From Flavobacteriales bacterium (GTDB lineage Bacteria > Bacteroidota > Bacteroidia > Flavobacteriales > Flavobacteriaceae), in NCBI GenBank assembly GCA_027023475.1, contig JALVVJ010000099.1, positions 1 through 37,422 of the forward strand: 37,422 bases of DNA, written 5' to 3'. The notes below the pieces were generated by a model. That model did not search any database, was not told where the DNA came from, and saw only the letters and a program-made list of their open reading frames with translations. The first letter of the stretch is position 1. Every line of letters starts with the position of its first letter. The position numbers and the translations under genes were made by a program. Positions 4,309 to 33,913 of this stretch are shown piece after piece.

Positions 4309-4353
4309 GTGGGATTTACCGGGGCGCCCGGCCGCTCACGTTCGCACAGCGGT

Positions 4354-4423
4354 GCATCAAGCATGAAATGTGGGAAAAGTTGAAGTTAAACAAAACTTGG
4401 TGTGATCATTTGATGCTTGATGC
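4354..4423. repeat. Long hairpin in repeat copy A
   Basis: GCATCAAGCATGAAATG (4354-4370) pairs with CATTTGATGCTTGATGC (4407-4423) at 16 of 17 positions around a 36-base loop. The loop carries GGAAAAGTTGAAGTTA and AACAAAACTTGGTGTG, both identical in copy C. Copy C has a different stem sequence at the same place that also pairs, so the fold and not the stem sequence appears to be kept. Confidence 0.8.
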
Positions 4424-4621
4424 AACGCTAAGCCGCATCCTTTCGCGTTCGCTCATGCTGCGGCGTGCTCACGTGGCGCCCGCCGGGCTGTCCGCTCAAA
4501 TGCGCTGGCGGCCCGCTCTTGCCCTGCAAGCGTGGCGAACGTGGCTCCCCGCTGGTCGCCCCGTCGCCACGGCAGGCCTTCGGCGCGCCGCCCTCGCATA
4601 ACCGCTCCCATCCCTGGCGCT

Positions 4622-5199: not shown

Positions 5200-5597
5200 G
5201 GGGCCGAACGGTTTCGACGGCAGGTTCTTTGACAGGTTAGCATGCCGAGGTTGGGATTGCCTCGTTAATCAAGTCCCGGAAACAATAAACGGCGAAGCTA
5301 ACTTTGCACTCGCTGCCTGATCCCGAAGCACAGTAGGGATTACGGCCAACGTTCCCGCAAGGCGGGAAGGCGAGAAGTCCCTCGGAGGCCTTGGTTTACG
5401 GCATCCGGCACAGGGGCTCCGTAAAAGTAAACCTAGGATCGGCGATGCTCCTAAGCCGTTCCGAAACCCGTAGGAGCTAAGCCGGAAGTGGCCTGTCTGC
5501 GGGCAGCTTCCGGACGAAAACCAAACGCAGACTAAGCATGTAGAAAACCTGCCGAATGCCTGACCGGACGAGGGTTCGAGTCCCTCCGGCTCCACTA
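5200..5597 (+). ncRNA. ssrA: tmRNA (transfer-messenger RNA)
   Basis: The 5' end GGGGCCGAACGGTTTCGACG is the classic tmRNA start. Its first seven bases pair with CGGCTCC near the 3' end to form the tRNA-like acceptor stem, and GGGTTCGAGTCCC forms the T arm. tmRNA frees ribosomes stalled on broken messages and tags the product for destruction. The tag frame runs 5291-5320 (resume codon GGC, stop TGA) and encodes GEANFALAA, close to known Bacteroidota tags ending in YALAA. The 3' end reads ACTA and not ACCA, so the CCA is not encoded in full; the mature RNA probably ends at 5594 before CCA is added. A terminator follows at once. An antisense frame containing EPEGLEPSSGQAFGR is a familiar artefact of this gene. 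Confidence 0.97.
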
Positions 5598-16805: not shown

Positions 16806-17141
16806 ATGCCCGTAGTAGTTACCGATGCCACGTTCGAAAAGGAAGTGCTTCAATCCAAAGTGCCCGTTGTGGTTGATTTTTGGGCCGTTTGGTGCGGACC
16901 TTGCCGTATGATTGCACCCATTATGGAGCAATTGGAAGAACGTTATGGCGACAAAATCAAAGTGGCCAAAGTGGATGTGGATCACGAACAACAATATGCC
17001 GCCAAATACGGCGTGCGCAACATCCCCACTGTGCTGGTTTTCCAAAACGGCGAACCCATCGGACGTCAAGTAGGAGTAGCACCGCTCGAAGTGTTTACCC
17101 GTGCTTTGGACCAATTGGTGGGCCACGAACAAAAGGCCTAA
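16806..17141 (+). CDS. trxA: Thioredoxin
   Basis: This is a 111-residue single-domain thioredoxin with the active site WCGPC (Cys30 and Cys33) in the context VDFWAVWCGPCRMIAP and the cis-proline motif NIPTVLVF. There is no signal peptide, so it is cytosolic and reduces protein disulfides with electrons from thioredoxin reductase. Length is normal. A consensus -7 box precedes it and a strong terminator follows, so it is probably monocistronic. Repeat copy B starts directly after its terminator. Confidence 0.97.
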   Translation: MPVVVTDATFEKEVLQSKVPVVVDFWAVWCGPCRMIAPIMEQLEERYGDKIKVAKVDVDHEQQYAAKYGVRNIPTVLVFQNGEPIGRQVGVAPLEVFTRALDQLVGHEQKA

Positions 17142-17163: not shown

Positions 17164-17200
17164 AAAACGCCTCGATTTTCCGGGGCGTTTTTCTTTTTTA
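17164..17200 (+). terminator. Rho-independent terminator of trxA
   Basis: AAAACGCCTCG (17164-17174) pairs over 11 positions with CGGGGCGTTTT (17181-17191), including one G-T pair, with a 6-base loop, followed by a T-rich tract to 17199. Confidence 0.92.
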
Positions 17201-17585
17201 GGGCGCCTGGCTGCTCACGTTCACGCCTCGGCGGTTGCTTCAAGACGACGGAGCGCTTTCGCACCCGCCGGCGTTCACGTGGCAGCCACCGGGCTGTCCG
17301 CTTAAATTCGCCTCGGGCCGCGGCGGTTTGCTAAGGGCCGGCTGCGGTGTCTCCTCAATACTTCGGAGCCACCTCGCCGGCAGCAAACCATGCCGCGCCC
17401 CTTCGGCTCATACCGCTCCCATCCCTGGCGCTTATTGGCGCGCGATAAATCGCGCTTGAATAATGAACGTCGAACTATTGAACGCCGATTGGCTCCGTCG
17501 GTGCCTCCTGCCACCGACGGCATTATACATTATCCTCGCCCCATCGTAATGACTCCGTTCTCCTATTGTAAAAATTGAAGGCGGC
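17201..17585 (+). repeat. Dispersed intergenic repeat, copy B
   Basis: This copy fills the gap between trxA and udp. Its blocks, in order: 5' edge GGGCGCCTGGCTGCTCACGT (17201-17220); hairpin H1 (17229-17270); GGGCTGTCCGCTTAAATTCG (17291-17310); ACCGCTCCCATCCCTGGCGC (17412-17431); palindrome GCGCGATAAATCGCGC (17440-17455); and a 3' edge TATTGTAAAAATTGAAGGC (17564-17582). It lacks the long hairpin of copies A and C. Between palindrome and 3' edge it has its own 9-bp hairpin, CCGTCGGTG with CACCGACGG (17495-17520). No gene is supported. Confidence 0.85.
17229..17270. repeat. Hairpin H1 in repeat copy B
   Basis: CGGCGG (17229-17234) pairs with CCGCCG (17265-17270) around a 30-base loop containing TGCTTCAAG and ACGGAGC. 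Copy C has nearly the same loop but a different stem, TGGCCG with CGGCCA (31719-31759), which still pairs. Confidence 0.6.
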
Positions 17586-18726: not shown

Positions 18727-18735
18727 ATGGGCAAG

Positions 18736-18808
18736 TGACCCGGCTGAGGCTCGAACTCAGGACCCTCTCCTTAAAAGGGAGATGCTCTACCTACTGAGCT
18801 ACCGGGTC
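18736..18808 (-). tRNA. tRNA-Lys (anticodon TTT), copy 2
   Basis: A 73-base cloverleaf on the minus strand: acceptor GACCCGG with CCGGGTC, anticodon loop CTTTTAA and T arm GAGTTCGAGCCTC. CCA is not encoded. It is identical in all 73 bases to the copy at 18833-18905, with a 24-base spacer between them. Confidence 0.97.
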
Positions 18809-18832
18809 AGGAAACCCGTGATGCGAAATATG

Positions 18833-18905
18833 TGACCCGGCTGAGGCTCGAACTCAGGACCCTCTCCTTAAAAGGGAGATGCTCTACCTACTGAGCTACC
18901 GGGTC
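18833..18905 (-). tRNA. tRNA-Lys (anticodon TTT), copy 1
   Basis: First gene of the cluster, identical to the downstream tRNA-Lys. It begins about 21 bases after the -7 box of the cluster promoter. CCA is not encoded, unlike in the tRNA-Leu of the same transcript. Confidence 0.97.
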
Positions 18906-31607: not shown

Positions 31608-31769
31608 TTCGGGTCAACTTTCGCTTATTGGATGAACTGCGACCCAAAAAGTTTAATCACAGATGTTTTTGTTTTTGTGGGCGCCCCGGCGCCTGCGTTC
31701 GTGGCGGCTTTGGCGCAATGGCCGCTGCTTCAAGCAACGGAGCTCTTTCGCACCGGCCACCACTCACGG

Positions 31770-31929
31770 CGTTGCAGCAAGTGTAAAATGTCGGAAAAGT
31801 TGAAGTTATTTTTGTCGAGAACAAAGCCGGTCGTCCGAAGGCATAGCCGTAGCTATGGCAAGGATGGTCAATGCCGATATCGGCAAAAAGAACAAAACTT
31901 GGTGTGCATATTTTATACTTGCTGCAACG
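31770..31929. repeat. Long hairpin H2 in repeat copy C
   Basis: Bases 31770-31790 can pair with 31909-31929 at all 21 positions when drawn as RNA (19 standard pairs and 2 G-U). The stem sequence differs from that of copy A at several places while pairing is kept; the loop-flanking words GGAAAAGTTGAAGTTA and AACAAAACTTGGTGTG are unchanged. Confidence 0.8.
31809..31890. mobile_element. 82-bp insertion inside the H2 loop of copy C
   Basis: Copies A and C are identical on both sides of this point (TGAAGTTA before, AACAAAACTTGGTGTG after), but C has 82 extra bases. The insert starts TTTTTGTCG and ends CGGCAAAAAG, so its ends form an 8-of-9 inverted repeat. Inside are the hairpin CATAGC-CGTA-GCTATG (31842-31857) and the palindrome GCCGATATCGGC (31873-31884). 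It is far too small to encode a transposase. It could be a MITE-like insert or a segment deleted from copy A; no target duplication is obvious. Confidence 0.5.
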
Positions 31930-32100
31930 CCCAGGCGCCGTCGGGCTGTCCGCTCAAATGCGGCTCGGGTGCGTTGGCTTTTGCAATGCCGCCCCCACGG
32001 TCTCTTGCGCTGCGAGCCCCTGCCGGCGGCGCAAAAGCACATCCGCCCCTTCGCCGCATAACCGCTTCCATCCCTGGCGCGAATTTAATTATGAATTCTA

Positions 32101-32265: not shown

Positions 32266-33003
32266 TTATTGCTCCAATGCTTCGGTGGCCGGTGTTTGGT
32301 CCGCCGGTTCGGAAACGGCTTCGTTGTAGAAAACCGCTTGGGCGAAATAGATTACGGGAATGGCGATAAGAGCACCGACAATAAGGGCAAGAAGGCCGAA
32401 AAATAAAGCCAAAACGGCAAATAATATCATCAAAATGATTTCTCCAACATAAGCTTCGGTTTTTTTCCACGATACTTTTATGGCATTGGCGACGCTGTGT
32501 CTGTCCAGGACAAGGAAGAACACAAACATTAAACGTATGGAAAGATAAAATCCCACAAAAAGACCCAAGAAAAGACCGAAAATAACGATAGGCCCGGTTT
32601 TAATGGCCAATGCGACAAGCACAAAAGGAATGGTAATGATCAGTGGAATCAAAATAAGAAGTAATGAGAAAAGGAAATAATAAAAGACCGTTGTGCCTTG
32701 GATGTATTTGGAAAATACTTCTCCCACTCCATTGTATTGGTTCCGAACAACATCCAAGGCATAGCCGTTCAAGAATACGGCCACTAAAAGTTGAACAAAA
32801 TAGACAAGAAGAAATATCAGAAAATAAGATTGTAAGCCGTGCCGGCCGTATTTATCCCGGTTTACTGGTTCGGGCAAAATTATATTTACAAAAAAATATA
32901 TGAGCAGGAACGTTAAAAGAAAAATAGCGATATGTGTAAGCGGATTTTTCTTGAAGGTTTCCCAAGCGCGGGAGAATGCTTGTGCGGCGGTAATTTTTTT
33001 CAT
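32266..33003 (-). CDS. Multipass membrane protein, tandem paralogue 2
   Basis: This is a 245-residue integral membrane protein with about six hydrophobic segments (roughly 22-43, 62-85, 105-135, 138-165, 195-215 and 215-235). The start MKKITAAQAFSRAWETFKKN, the motif GYALDVVRNQYNGVGEVFSKY and the tail YNEAVSEPADQTPATEALEQ are shared with the next gene upstream, so the two are duplicates. I do not recognise a characterised family; the layout recalls uncharacterised DUF-type inner-membrane proteins with an N-terminal amphipathic helix. There is no enzyme motif. The 71 bases at 32273-32343 are identical to the matching part of the paralogue. Confidence 0.8.
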   Translation of the reverse strand: MKKITAAQAFSRAWETFKKNPLTHIAIFLLTFLLIYFFVNIILPEPVNRDKYGRHGLQSYFLIFLLVYFVQLLVAVFLNGYALDVVRNQYNGVGEVFSKYIQGTTVFYYFLFSLLLILIPLIITIPFVLVALAIKTGPIVIFGLFLGLFVGFYLSIRLMFVFFLVLDRHSVANAIKVSWKKTEAYVGEIILMILFAVLALFFGLLALIVGALIAIPVIYFAQAVFYNEAVSEPADQTPATEALEQ

Positions 33004-33148: not shown

Positions 33149-33913
33149 TTATTGGTCCAATGCTTCGGTGGCCGGTGTTTGGTCCGCCGGTTCGGAAACG
33201 GCTTCGTTGTAGAAAACCGCTTGGGCTAAATAAATAATGGGAATAGTAACTAAAAGACCAATAATTAAAACAAGCAAACCGAGAAAAGCCAATGCTACGG
33301 CAATAATAATAAACAAAATAATTTCACCGATATAAGGCCGGGTTTTTTGCCAGGAAAGTCGAATGGCATCGGCAAAATCGTGGCCGTCCAGTAGAAGATA
33401 ATATACAAAAAACATACGGATAGCAAGGTATATCACAAAAAGATAACCGAATATCAATGCGAAAGTTAGAAAACTTCCGCTTTGGAATACATAAGAAAGT
33501 AATACAATGGGAATAAATATTGCAATGGCTGCCAAAGAGAAACCGATACCAAAAATTAGCATATTCAAAAATACGGAACCACGAACGTATTTGGAAAAGA
33601 CTTCACCAAGCCCTTTATATTGGTTCCTAACAACATCCAAAGTGTAACCGTAAAGGAACATATAAGCTACGATTTCAACAATTATTAAAACCAACATAGA
33701 TAAAAAAGAAGGACGTGCCTGTTGCAAGGCAGCCATCTCTTCGGGCGACATATTAAAACCTTTGAAATTCATAGAACCGGCGGGCATAAGCACCAAGGCA
33801 ATGATCCATAAAATAACTCCTACTAAGAAGAATACTCCGATATGTTGCAAAGCATTTTGCTTAAAAATTTCCCAGCCACGGGAAAAGGCACGTGAAGCGG
33901 TAATCTTTTTCAT
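33149..33913 (-). CDS. Multipass membrane protein, tandem paralogue 1
   Basis: This is a 254-residue membrane protein, paralogous to the gene at 32266-33003: MKKITASRAFSRGWEIFKQN at the start, GYTLDVVRNQYKGLGEVFSKY near residue 88, a conserved SWQKTRPYIGEIILF near 190, and a tail differing by one residue from its partner. It has about six hydrophobic segments. A short loop near residues 45-70 (NMSPEEMAALQQARP) is unique to this copy. A terminator lies between the pair, so each may have its own transcript. The function is unknown. The duplication is clear; the shared tail is exactly conserved in DNA while the rest has diverged. Confidence 0.8.
   Translation of the reverse strand: MKKITASRAFSRGWEIFKQNALQHIGVFFLVGVILWIIALVLMPAGSMNFKGFNMSPEEMAALQQARPSFLSMLVLIIVEIVAYMFLYGYTLDVVRNQYKGLGEVFSKYVRGSVFLNMLIFGIGFSLAAIAIFIPIVLLSYVFQSGSFLTFALIFGYLFVIYLAIRMFFVYYLLLDGHDFADAIRLSWQKTRPYIGEIILFIIIAVALAFLGLLVLIIGLLVTIPIIYLAQAVFYNEAVSEPADQTPATEALDQ

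Follow-up and report, generated by a model that had tools for sequence, protein, structure and literature searches.

Among the described systems of hairpin repeats, REP/BIME elements with their RAYT (Y1) transposases are small, occur in mosaic combinations and depend on a single-strand fold for mobility, and the attC sites of integrons are folded single strands with variable arms and conserved unpaired features. MITEs of Porphyromonas and Cardinium are, according to the available parts of PMC4596501 and PMC9769881, non-autonomous, intergenic, hairpin-forming and unevenly distributed among related genomes. The orphan family Flavo-1 (RF01705) was published in 2010 and rated a probable RNA in Table 1 of that report (PMC2864571, available in part); in F. 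psychrophilum, its matches lie sense or antisense to transcribed regions with no preference, and many lie outside them (available part of PMC9723704). In the portions of the later literature found, no function is assigned to Flavo-1, and neither Flavo-1 as a mobile repeat nor the hairpin treated here is described in the open-licence PMC literature, as judged by title and abstract start.

The window is a stretch of 37,422 nucleotides from a Flavobacteriales bacterium (contig JALVVJ010000099.1 of GCA_027023475.1; genome G000 below) and carries a hairpin module set into larger repeats, the scaffolds. With REP/BIME it shares the many hairpin repeats in mosaic arrangement, and fold-dependent mobility may serve as a working analogy; it differs in its far larger elements, in a covarying core and in that no Y1 transposase (PF01797) was found in the repeat-rich genomes G000, G298, G303 and G300. 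Like the MITEs, the repeats are non-autonomous, intergenic, hairpin-forming and uneven among related genomes, but no target duplication was found and pairing stays while the arm letters change. The likeness to attC lies in single-strand folding with arms that vary and unpaired features that are conserved; by eye, the attC consensus was not noticed. Closest is Flavo-1, whose core with a covarying N-N' pair, three-way layout and intergenic multi-copy habit recur in the scaffold. The Flavo-1 model, however, spans about 76 positions, whereas a window-type scaffold measures 300-650 nt in all and contains a second folded module, and 174 scaffold ends are present here within one genome.

The hairpin module in the window and its copies

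The first-pass annotation had proposed a long hairpin with compensatory stem changes between two copies, A and C, and the stems were borne out. In copy A, 4354-4370 forms 16 Watson-Crick pairs of 17 with 4407-4423; in copy C, 31770-31790 and 31909-31929 pair at 21 of 21 positions (19 Watson-Crick and 2 G·T), and the change from GCATCAAGCAT in copy A to GCAGCAAGTGT in copy C is accompanied by matching arms. Two 16-letter words said to be unchanged are indeed identical in A (4373, 4389) and C (31793, 31891), but are variable elsewhere, e.g. TTGCAG for TTGAAG. Their description as a conserved loop was mistaken, because both words pair with each other within the hairpin, AAGTT (31797-31801) with AACTT (31896-31900). 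The idea of a folded DNA end found no support either, the hairpin lying inside a larger repeat as one of its arms (copy C, 31679-32080; copy A, 4322-4620). Some 82 nt of the interior of copy C are missing from copy A, whose two words therefore adjoin. The hairpin of copy C is beyond chance, with an RNA fold of -75.2 kcal/mol against a shuffle mean of -40.9 (z -9.3; 0 of 200 shuffles) and, folded as DNA, a z of -8.2 against shuffles. Its parts are as follows.

31769-31930, plus strand: hairpin module, copy C, full form of 162 nt; 193.9 bits and E 1.1e-44 with model R1, for which this window copy was among the sequences used in building; fold z -9.3
31769-31790, plus strand: outer stem, 5' arm, copy C; pairs with 31909-31930 (20 Watson-Crick and 2 G·T of 22)
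31909-31930, plus strand: outer stem, 3' arm, copy C; pairs with 31769-31790
31797-31801, plus strand: AAGTT, 5' side of the inner helix, within the first of the two words; pairs with 31896-31900
31896-31900, plus strand: AACTT, 3' side of the inner helix; pairs with 31797-31801
31842-31857, plus strand: apical hairpin CATAGC-CGTA-GCTATG, the least variable stretch within the module, with closing pairs kept across rows
4349-4428, plus strand: hairpin module, copy A, short form without about 82 nt inside; R1 74.6 bits, E 3.9e-16; stem 20 of 22

The module is a multi-copy repeat. The 16-mer GGAAAAGTTGAAGTTA occurs 19 times in the genome and its reversed word not at all, and AACAAAACTTGGTGTG occurs 45 times exactly and 79 times when as many as 3 mismatches are allowed, a tolerance at which the backwards control gives 39. 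Reading of 72 places left 9 without the 3' end of the module, which were chance-like, 57 that could be delimited and 6 more that were cut or not delimitable, so that approximately 63 modules reside in one assembly of 2.29 Mb. Further copies are present in three sister genomes, and module-core matches with at most 1 mismatch number 55, 28, 15, 1 and five times 0 in the nine genomes of the genus. Searches of phages and plasmids gave no match, IMG/VR gave no exact pattern match, and no Rfam family was found to cover the module in the window and at seven distant loci (maximum E 1-10; none above the gathering score).

Covariation, arm types and strand lean

Pairing was retained across many copies. 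Among the 57 delimited copies, a set that takes in recombinants and four short forms and leaves out the six undelimitable ones, the outer stem is fully paired in 43 and has one unpaired position in 12; the remaining two are recombinants with three (C110) and two (C35) unpaired positions. In these two G000 copies (C110:3805, L032; C35:9847, L055), the 5' arm of one type is joined to the 3' arm of another, for which a deletion between two modules of one scaffold could be the source. Another G000 copy (C40:3190, L056) is inverted relative to the surrounding scaffold words, as arm recombination would give.

An alignment of 43 rows (A2) was assembled from 30 rows of the window's genome (29 plus the window copy) and 13 from outside it, including three sister genomes; short forms were dropped before a 97% identity filter that reduced the 57 delimited copies to 35, and C110, C35 and a few others were omitted. 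In this alignment, 98.1% of the pair cells are standard, compared with 33.7-48.1% when the pairing is slid. Five of the six closing pairs of the apical hairpin are kept in all or all but one of the rows, and a word similar to it is present in distant relatives. The inner helix AAGTT/AACTT reads AAGTC/GACTT in four rows of G298, with one pair changed on both sides, and unpaired internal loops persist across copies.

Double changes were found at 10 of the 52 pairs. Two of five measures were unremarkable against shuffles, namely pairs with a double change (10 versus 7.4, reached by 10 of 500) and further pair types (27 versus 27.2, reached by 366 of 500), because few arm types have been inherited by many copies. 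The outer stems of the 57 copies indeed fall into few, partner-matched types (GCGTTGCAGCAAG, GCATCGCTTCAAG, GCGTTGCATCAAG, GCGTTGCTTCAAG and GCGTCGCTTCAAG), and the number of independent events is therefore small. Covariation alone is no proof of selection, since in an inverted repeat one arm can be rewritten from the other by template switching, a mechanism described in the available part of PMC8794818. The earlier view of a structure under selection thus stands as regards the retained pairing and the lean to G·T described below; it is weakened by the few independent events and the erroneous loop, and covariation does not by itself establish it.

Mismatches were unevenly distributed between the strands. 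On the window strand, consensus pairs of the 57 copies contain 177 G·T and 8 A·C cells, counted with a structure that was itself folded on that strand. A symmetric recount, in which each strand was folded and no G·T was allowed, gave 63.5 G·T versus 4.0 A·C, and by copy 46 lean to G·T, 1 leans to A·C and 10 are even, these strand counts being non-independent as the copies are related. The window strand is also energetically more stable in 57 of 57 module copies. The window strand, with its preponderance of G·T among the mismatches, thus appears to be the one that folds; such a lean is expected of a folded single strand and not of neutral arm repair. Compact Flavo-1 elements revealed no strand lean among their mismatches (4.5 versus 3.5), and their other strand is the more stable by energy in 23 of 30, opposite to the module, which counts against a spread by way of the fold.

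Flavo-1-like scaffolds, relatives and sites of gain or loss

The module is mostly an arm of a repeat of 300-650 nt, in which two arms and a terminal stem are combined with the core GGGCTN..CCGCT / CCGCT.CN'ATCCC. Its usual start is GGGCGCC, preceded by a T-run, and its usual end CCGCTCCCATCCCTGGCGC; this end pattern gave the 174 genomic matches mentioned above versus 0 for the control, and was present in 25 of 296 Bacteroidota genomes, the window's genome included. Three scaffolds lie in the window.

31679-32080, plus strand: scaffold C, 402 nt, GGGCGCC ... GGGCTGTCCGCT (31943-31954) ... CCGCTTCCATCCCTGGCGC, module in the first arm; read from the sequence; fold z -6.1
4322-4620, plus strand: scaffold A, 299 nt; read from the sequence; fold z -3.9
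17201-17431, plus strand: scaffold B, without module; read from the sequence; repeats D4, D5 and D11
17165-17199, plus strand: terminator-like hairpin with T-run, immediately upstream of scaffold B and downstream of the open reading frame 16806-17141; read from the sequence

Within the surrounding stretches examined, 54 of the 63 modules are accompanied by forward Flavo-1-like core or end words and two (C40, C78) by scaffold words in reverse; six have terminal-stem words only, which is weak, and the last has none by pattern, though by eye its end is one letter off. Modules in the first arm are mostly of GTTGCAGC types and those in the second of GCATCGC types, and C4 and C118 carry modules in both. 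The core pair N-N' is Watson-Crick in 53 of 53 scaffolds of the genus (52 G-C, 1 A-T), in 33 of 33 outside it (A-T 19, T-A 7, G-C 6, C-G 1) and in 9 of 9 at the trpB site described below. The terminal stem GCGNN/NNCGC is complementary in 27 of 31 cases outside the genus and 9 of 9 at trpB, on a nearest-candidate count, and in 16 of 38 within the genus, where the count is crude and the long arms hold decoy words. A palindrome resembling GCGCGATAAATCGCGC lies directly 3' of many scaffolds and is sometimes repeated (window 17432-17460); it may be a further companion repeat.

RF01705 gave no match in the window at the gathering threshold (42 bits), none with scaffolds C and A even at E ≤ 10, and 0 matches among the 22 scored of 494 candidates in G000. 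As the scaffold shares the core but not the Rfam score, it is called Flavo-1-like here and not a member. The compact versions in other genomes are Flavo-1, with six of the seven loci given scoring above the Rfam threshold. With at most 22 candidates scored per genome, RF01705 matched in at least 75 of 198 genomes of the class (E ≤ 0.001), at least 49 of them above the cut-off.

Diverged relatives of the module also occur elsewhere in Flavobacteriales. Scanning named genomes for a pattern yielded ten contigs from five draft genomes (six from Ichthyobacteriaceae, one from Bizionia, one from Flavobacteriaceae and two from Flavobacteriales). The covariance model built here recovered eight of these ten loci plus a second match in L257, and placed the module in at least three further genomes of 196 in the order (14 candidates scored per genome). 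Seven distant copies have the same architecture in other letters, with double changes at 42 of 52 pairs and 89.8% of cells pairing versus 40-43% when slid; their alignment, having been fitted to the model, is biased towards it, and for three low-complexity matches the bias correction amounts to 14-17 bits. The modules of L237 and L245 adjoin Flavo-1 words. Other distant modules are free-standing, with arms such as ATACCAAAT..TTTGGTATTA, although in L244 a weak Flavo-1 match (E 0.028, below threshold) lies about 70 nt from the module; the free-standing relatives end in ATACCA..TGGTAT-like repeats. In L249, Flavo-1-like sequence sits inside a free-standing hairpin (about 1134-1230), and in L257 (966-1122) the neighbouring Flavo-1 end recurs as a copy within the outer arms of the module.

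Orthologous sites differ in their content. Scaffold B lies behind a gene that we take, from its WCGPC motif, to be thioredoxin-like (16806-17141); it is present in G000 and G298, directly after the terminator-like hairpin and T-run, and absent behind the same gene in six sister genomes (G296, G297, G299, G300, G301 and G302). At the 3' site of trpB, inspected at 30 loci of one genus (L206-L235), 9 fit the full pattern, another 8 were judged full by eye, and the others were classed by eye as 4 remnants, 4 doubtful and 5 without element. The element at this site is old and decaying, and between species its Flavo-1 arms have been replaced as whole blocks with the core kept. From this presence and absence it follows that copies are gained or lost, slowly at trpB. 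The element at the site of copy C is shared by G298. Past the end of the match to window 31671, the place of scaffold C in G000 is taken in G303 (L127) by CRISPR-like repeats of about 37 nt that contain GTCGTAGTCCTTGTTTTGATTGGAGAAGGATTCAAAG; with other sequence there, G303 offers no clean empty site. No transposition event was seen.

The flanks upstream of scaffolds are otherwise unrelated to each other, apart from the T-run: T makes up 62% of the last 12 nt versus 30% of the preceding 13 at 45 starts, several of which are internal look-alikes. Targeting of intrinsic terminators was considered and rejected, a terminator-like hairpin preceding the T-run in 3 of 36 contexts versus 31 of 150 control T-runs; the position of scaffold B behind a terminator is therefore not typical. 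A target duplication was found neither in 42 stretches (mean longest shared word 4.48 versus 4.69 shuffled) nor in 30 compact elements (4.10 versus 4.10), in a test that could miss duplications of 2-3 nt. Orientation to open reading frames was unbiased (left 10 same and 12 opposite, right 10 same and 14 opposite; 26 of 30 loci, crude calls).

As to candidate enzymes, Y1 (PF01797) was detected in one of nine genus genomes, G299, which itself has no module-core match. Reverse transcriptase was detected in four of nine (G000, G303, G299 and G296) and not in G298 or G300, in mismatch with the repeat load. An open frame of 787 aa with a reverse-transcriptase domain (L259; G000 C106:8786-9415) also occurs in G303.

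Competing explanations

We read these observations as a two-level, non-autonomous, interspersed repeat family of Flavobacteriales that would spread by way of a single-strand fold, and assign this reading a probability of about one half. Level one would be the Flavo-1-like scaffold with terminal stem, two arms and core, and level two the hairpin of about 162 nt, seated in either scaffold arm here and free-standing in some other genomes. What is kept would be the fold of the single strand, DNA or RNA, and not the letters of the arms; the fold would act as the signal for a putative trans-acting enzyme that copies or moves the repeats, and recombination would swap arms among copies. From the repeat copies, their conserved and covarying fold, the one-strand lean of mismatches, the two scaffold positions and the presence and absence at orthologous sites, we infer mobility by way of the fold.

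The same double changes could arise if replication template switching rewrote one arm of the inverted repeat from the other in the absence of selection, an account that we regard as a serious rival, though well short of an even chance. It would fit double changes confined to few arm types that differ as blocks, the block-wise replacement of arms at trpB, the inverted module in C40 and the Flavo-1 end copied into the outer arms of L257. It gives no reason why G·T should be tolerated and A·C not, on one strand only (in copies that are related), and it sits poorly with internal loops that persist unpaired and with the single-pair change in the AAGTT/AACTT helix. Even if it is selection that preserves them, the double changes may well have come from template switching. 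A non-coding RNA family that is transcribed and has a putative cellular job, as which Rfam files Flavo-1, would likewise have a covarying structure and a lean to G·T, and the published rating of Flavo-1 (PMC2864571, available part) points the same way; we consider it a serious rival too and about as probable as template switching, although the available part of PMC9723704 reports no strand preference of Flavo-1 matches relative to transcripts, orientation to neighbouring open reading frames is unbiased, sister genomes range from 0 to 55 module-core matches, and the strand favoured by energy is not the same for the module and the Flavo-1 scaffold.

Classical derivatives of inverted-repeat transposons, with ends read as duplex, would explain non-autonomous, intergenic, hairpin-forming repeats and the ATACCA..TGGTAT-like ends of free-standing relatives, and copies of that type could be just this. 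For the family as a whole this origin is quite improbable, as the scaffolds are without detected target duplication and the letters of the outer arms vary within and between genomes. A protein-coding remnant in the frame VAVIFVENKAGNPEGIAVAMARVANAVIGKKNKTW, open in a minority of copies that have one extra C, was rejected as hardly credible: no Pfam match was obtained at E ≤ 10, most copies lack the extra C and are frameshifted, and the changes track pairing.

Within the preferred reading of a fold-borne repeat family, a more specific and tentative version, against which we would bet, is that Flavo-1 and the second hairpin family of about 160 nt are both mobile elements of Flavobacteriales, selected for their fold, nesting, exchanging arms and moved by an enzyme other than Y1. 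As a variant, the A-run at the scaffold end, on the strand used by Rfam, would mark an RNA-mediated, retroposon-like route. The Flavo-1 "RNA" may in fact be a mobile DNA. The data suggest that at least the relatives of Flavo-1 in this genus behave as interspersed repeats that are variable in presence and absence, conserved in fold and carriers of a second folded family. If true, covariation in such families would reflect their mode of spread and not a cellular RNA job, and the family would offer a tractable case for separating selection on a single-strand fold from homogenisation by template switching.

Other features of the window include a tmRNA (5200-5595) beside copy A and two identical tRNA-Lys(ttt) genes (18735-18808 and 18832-18905) adjoining tRNA-Leu(gag). 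The neighbouring minus-strand open reading frames 32266-33003 and 33149-33913 form a diverged tandem pair (repeats D1, 83%, and D2, 73%).
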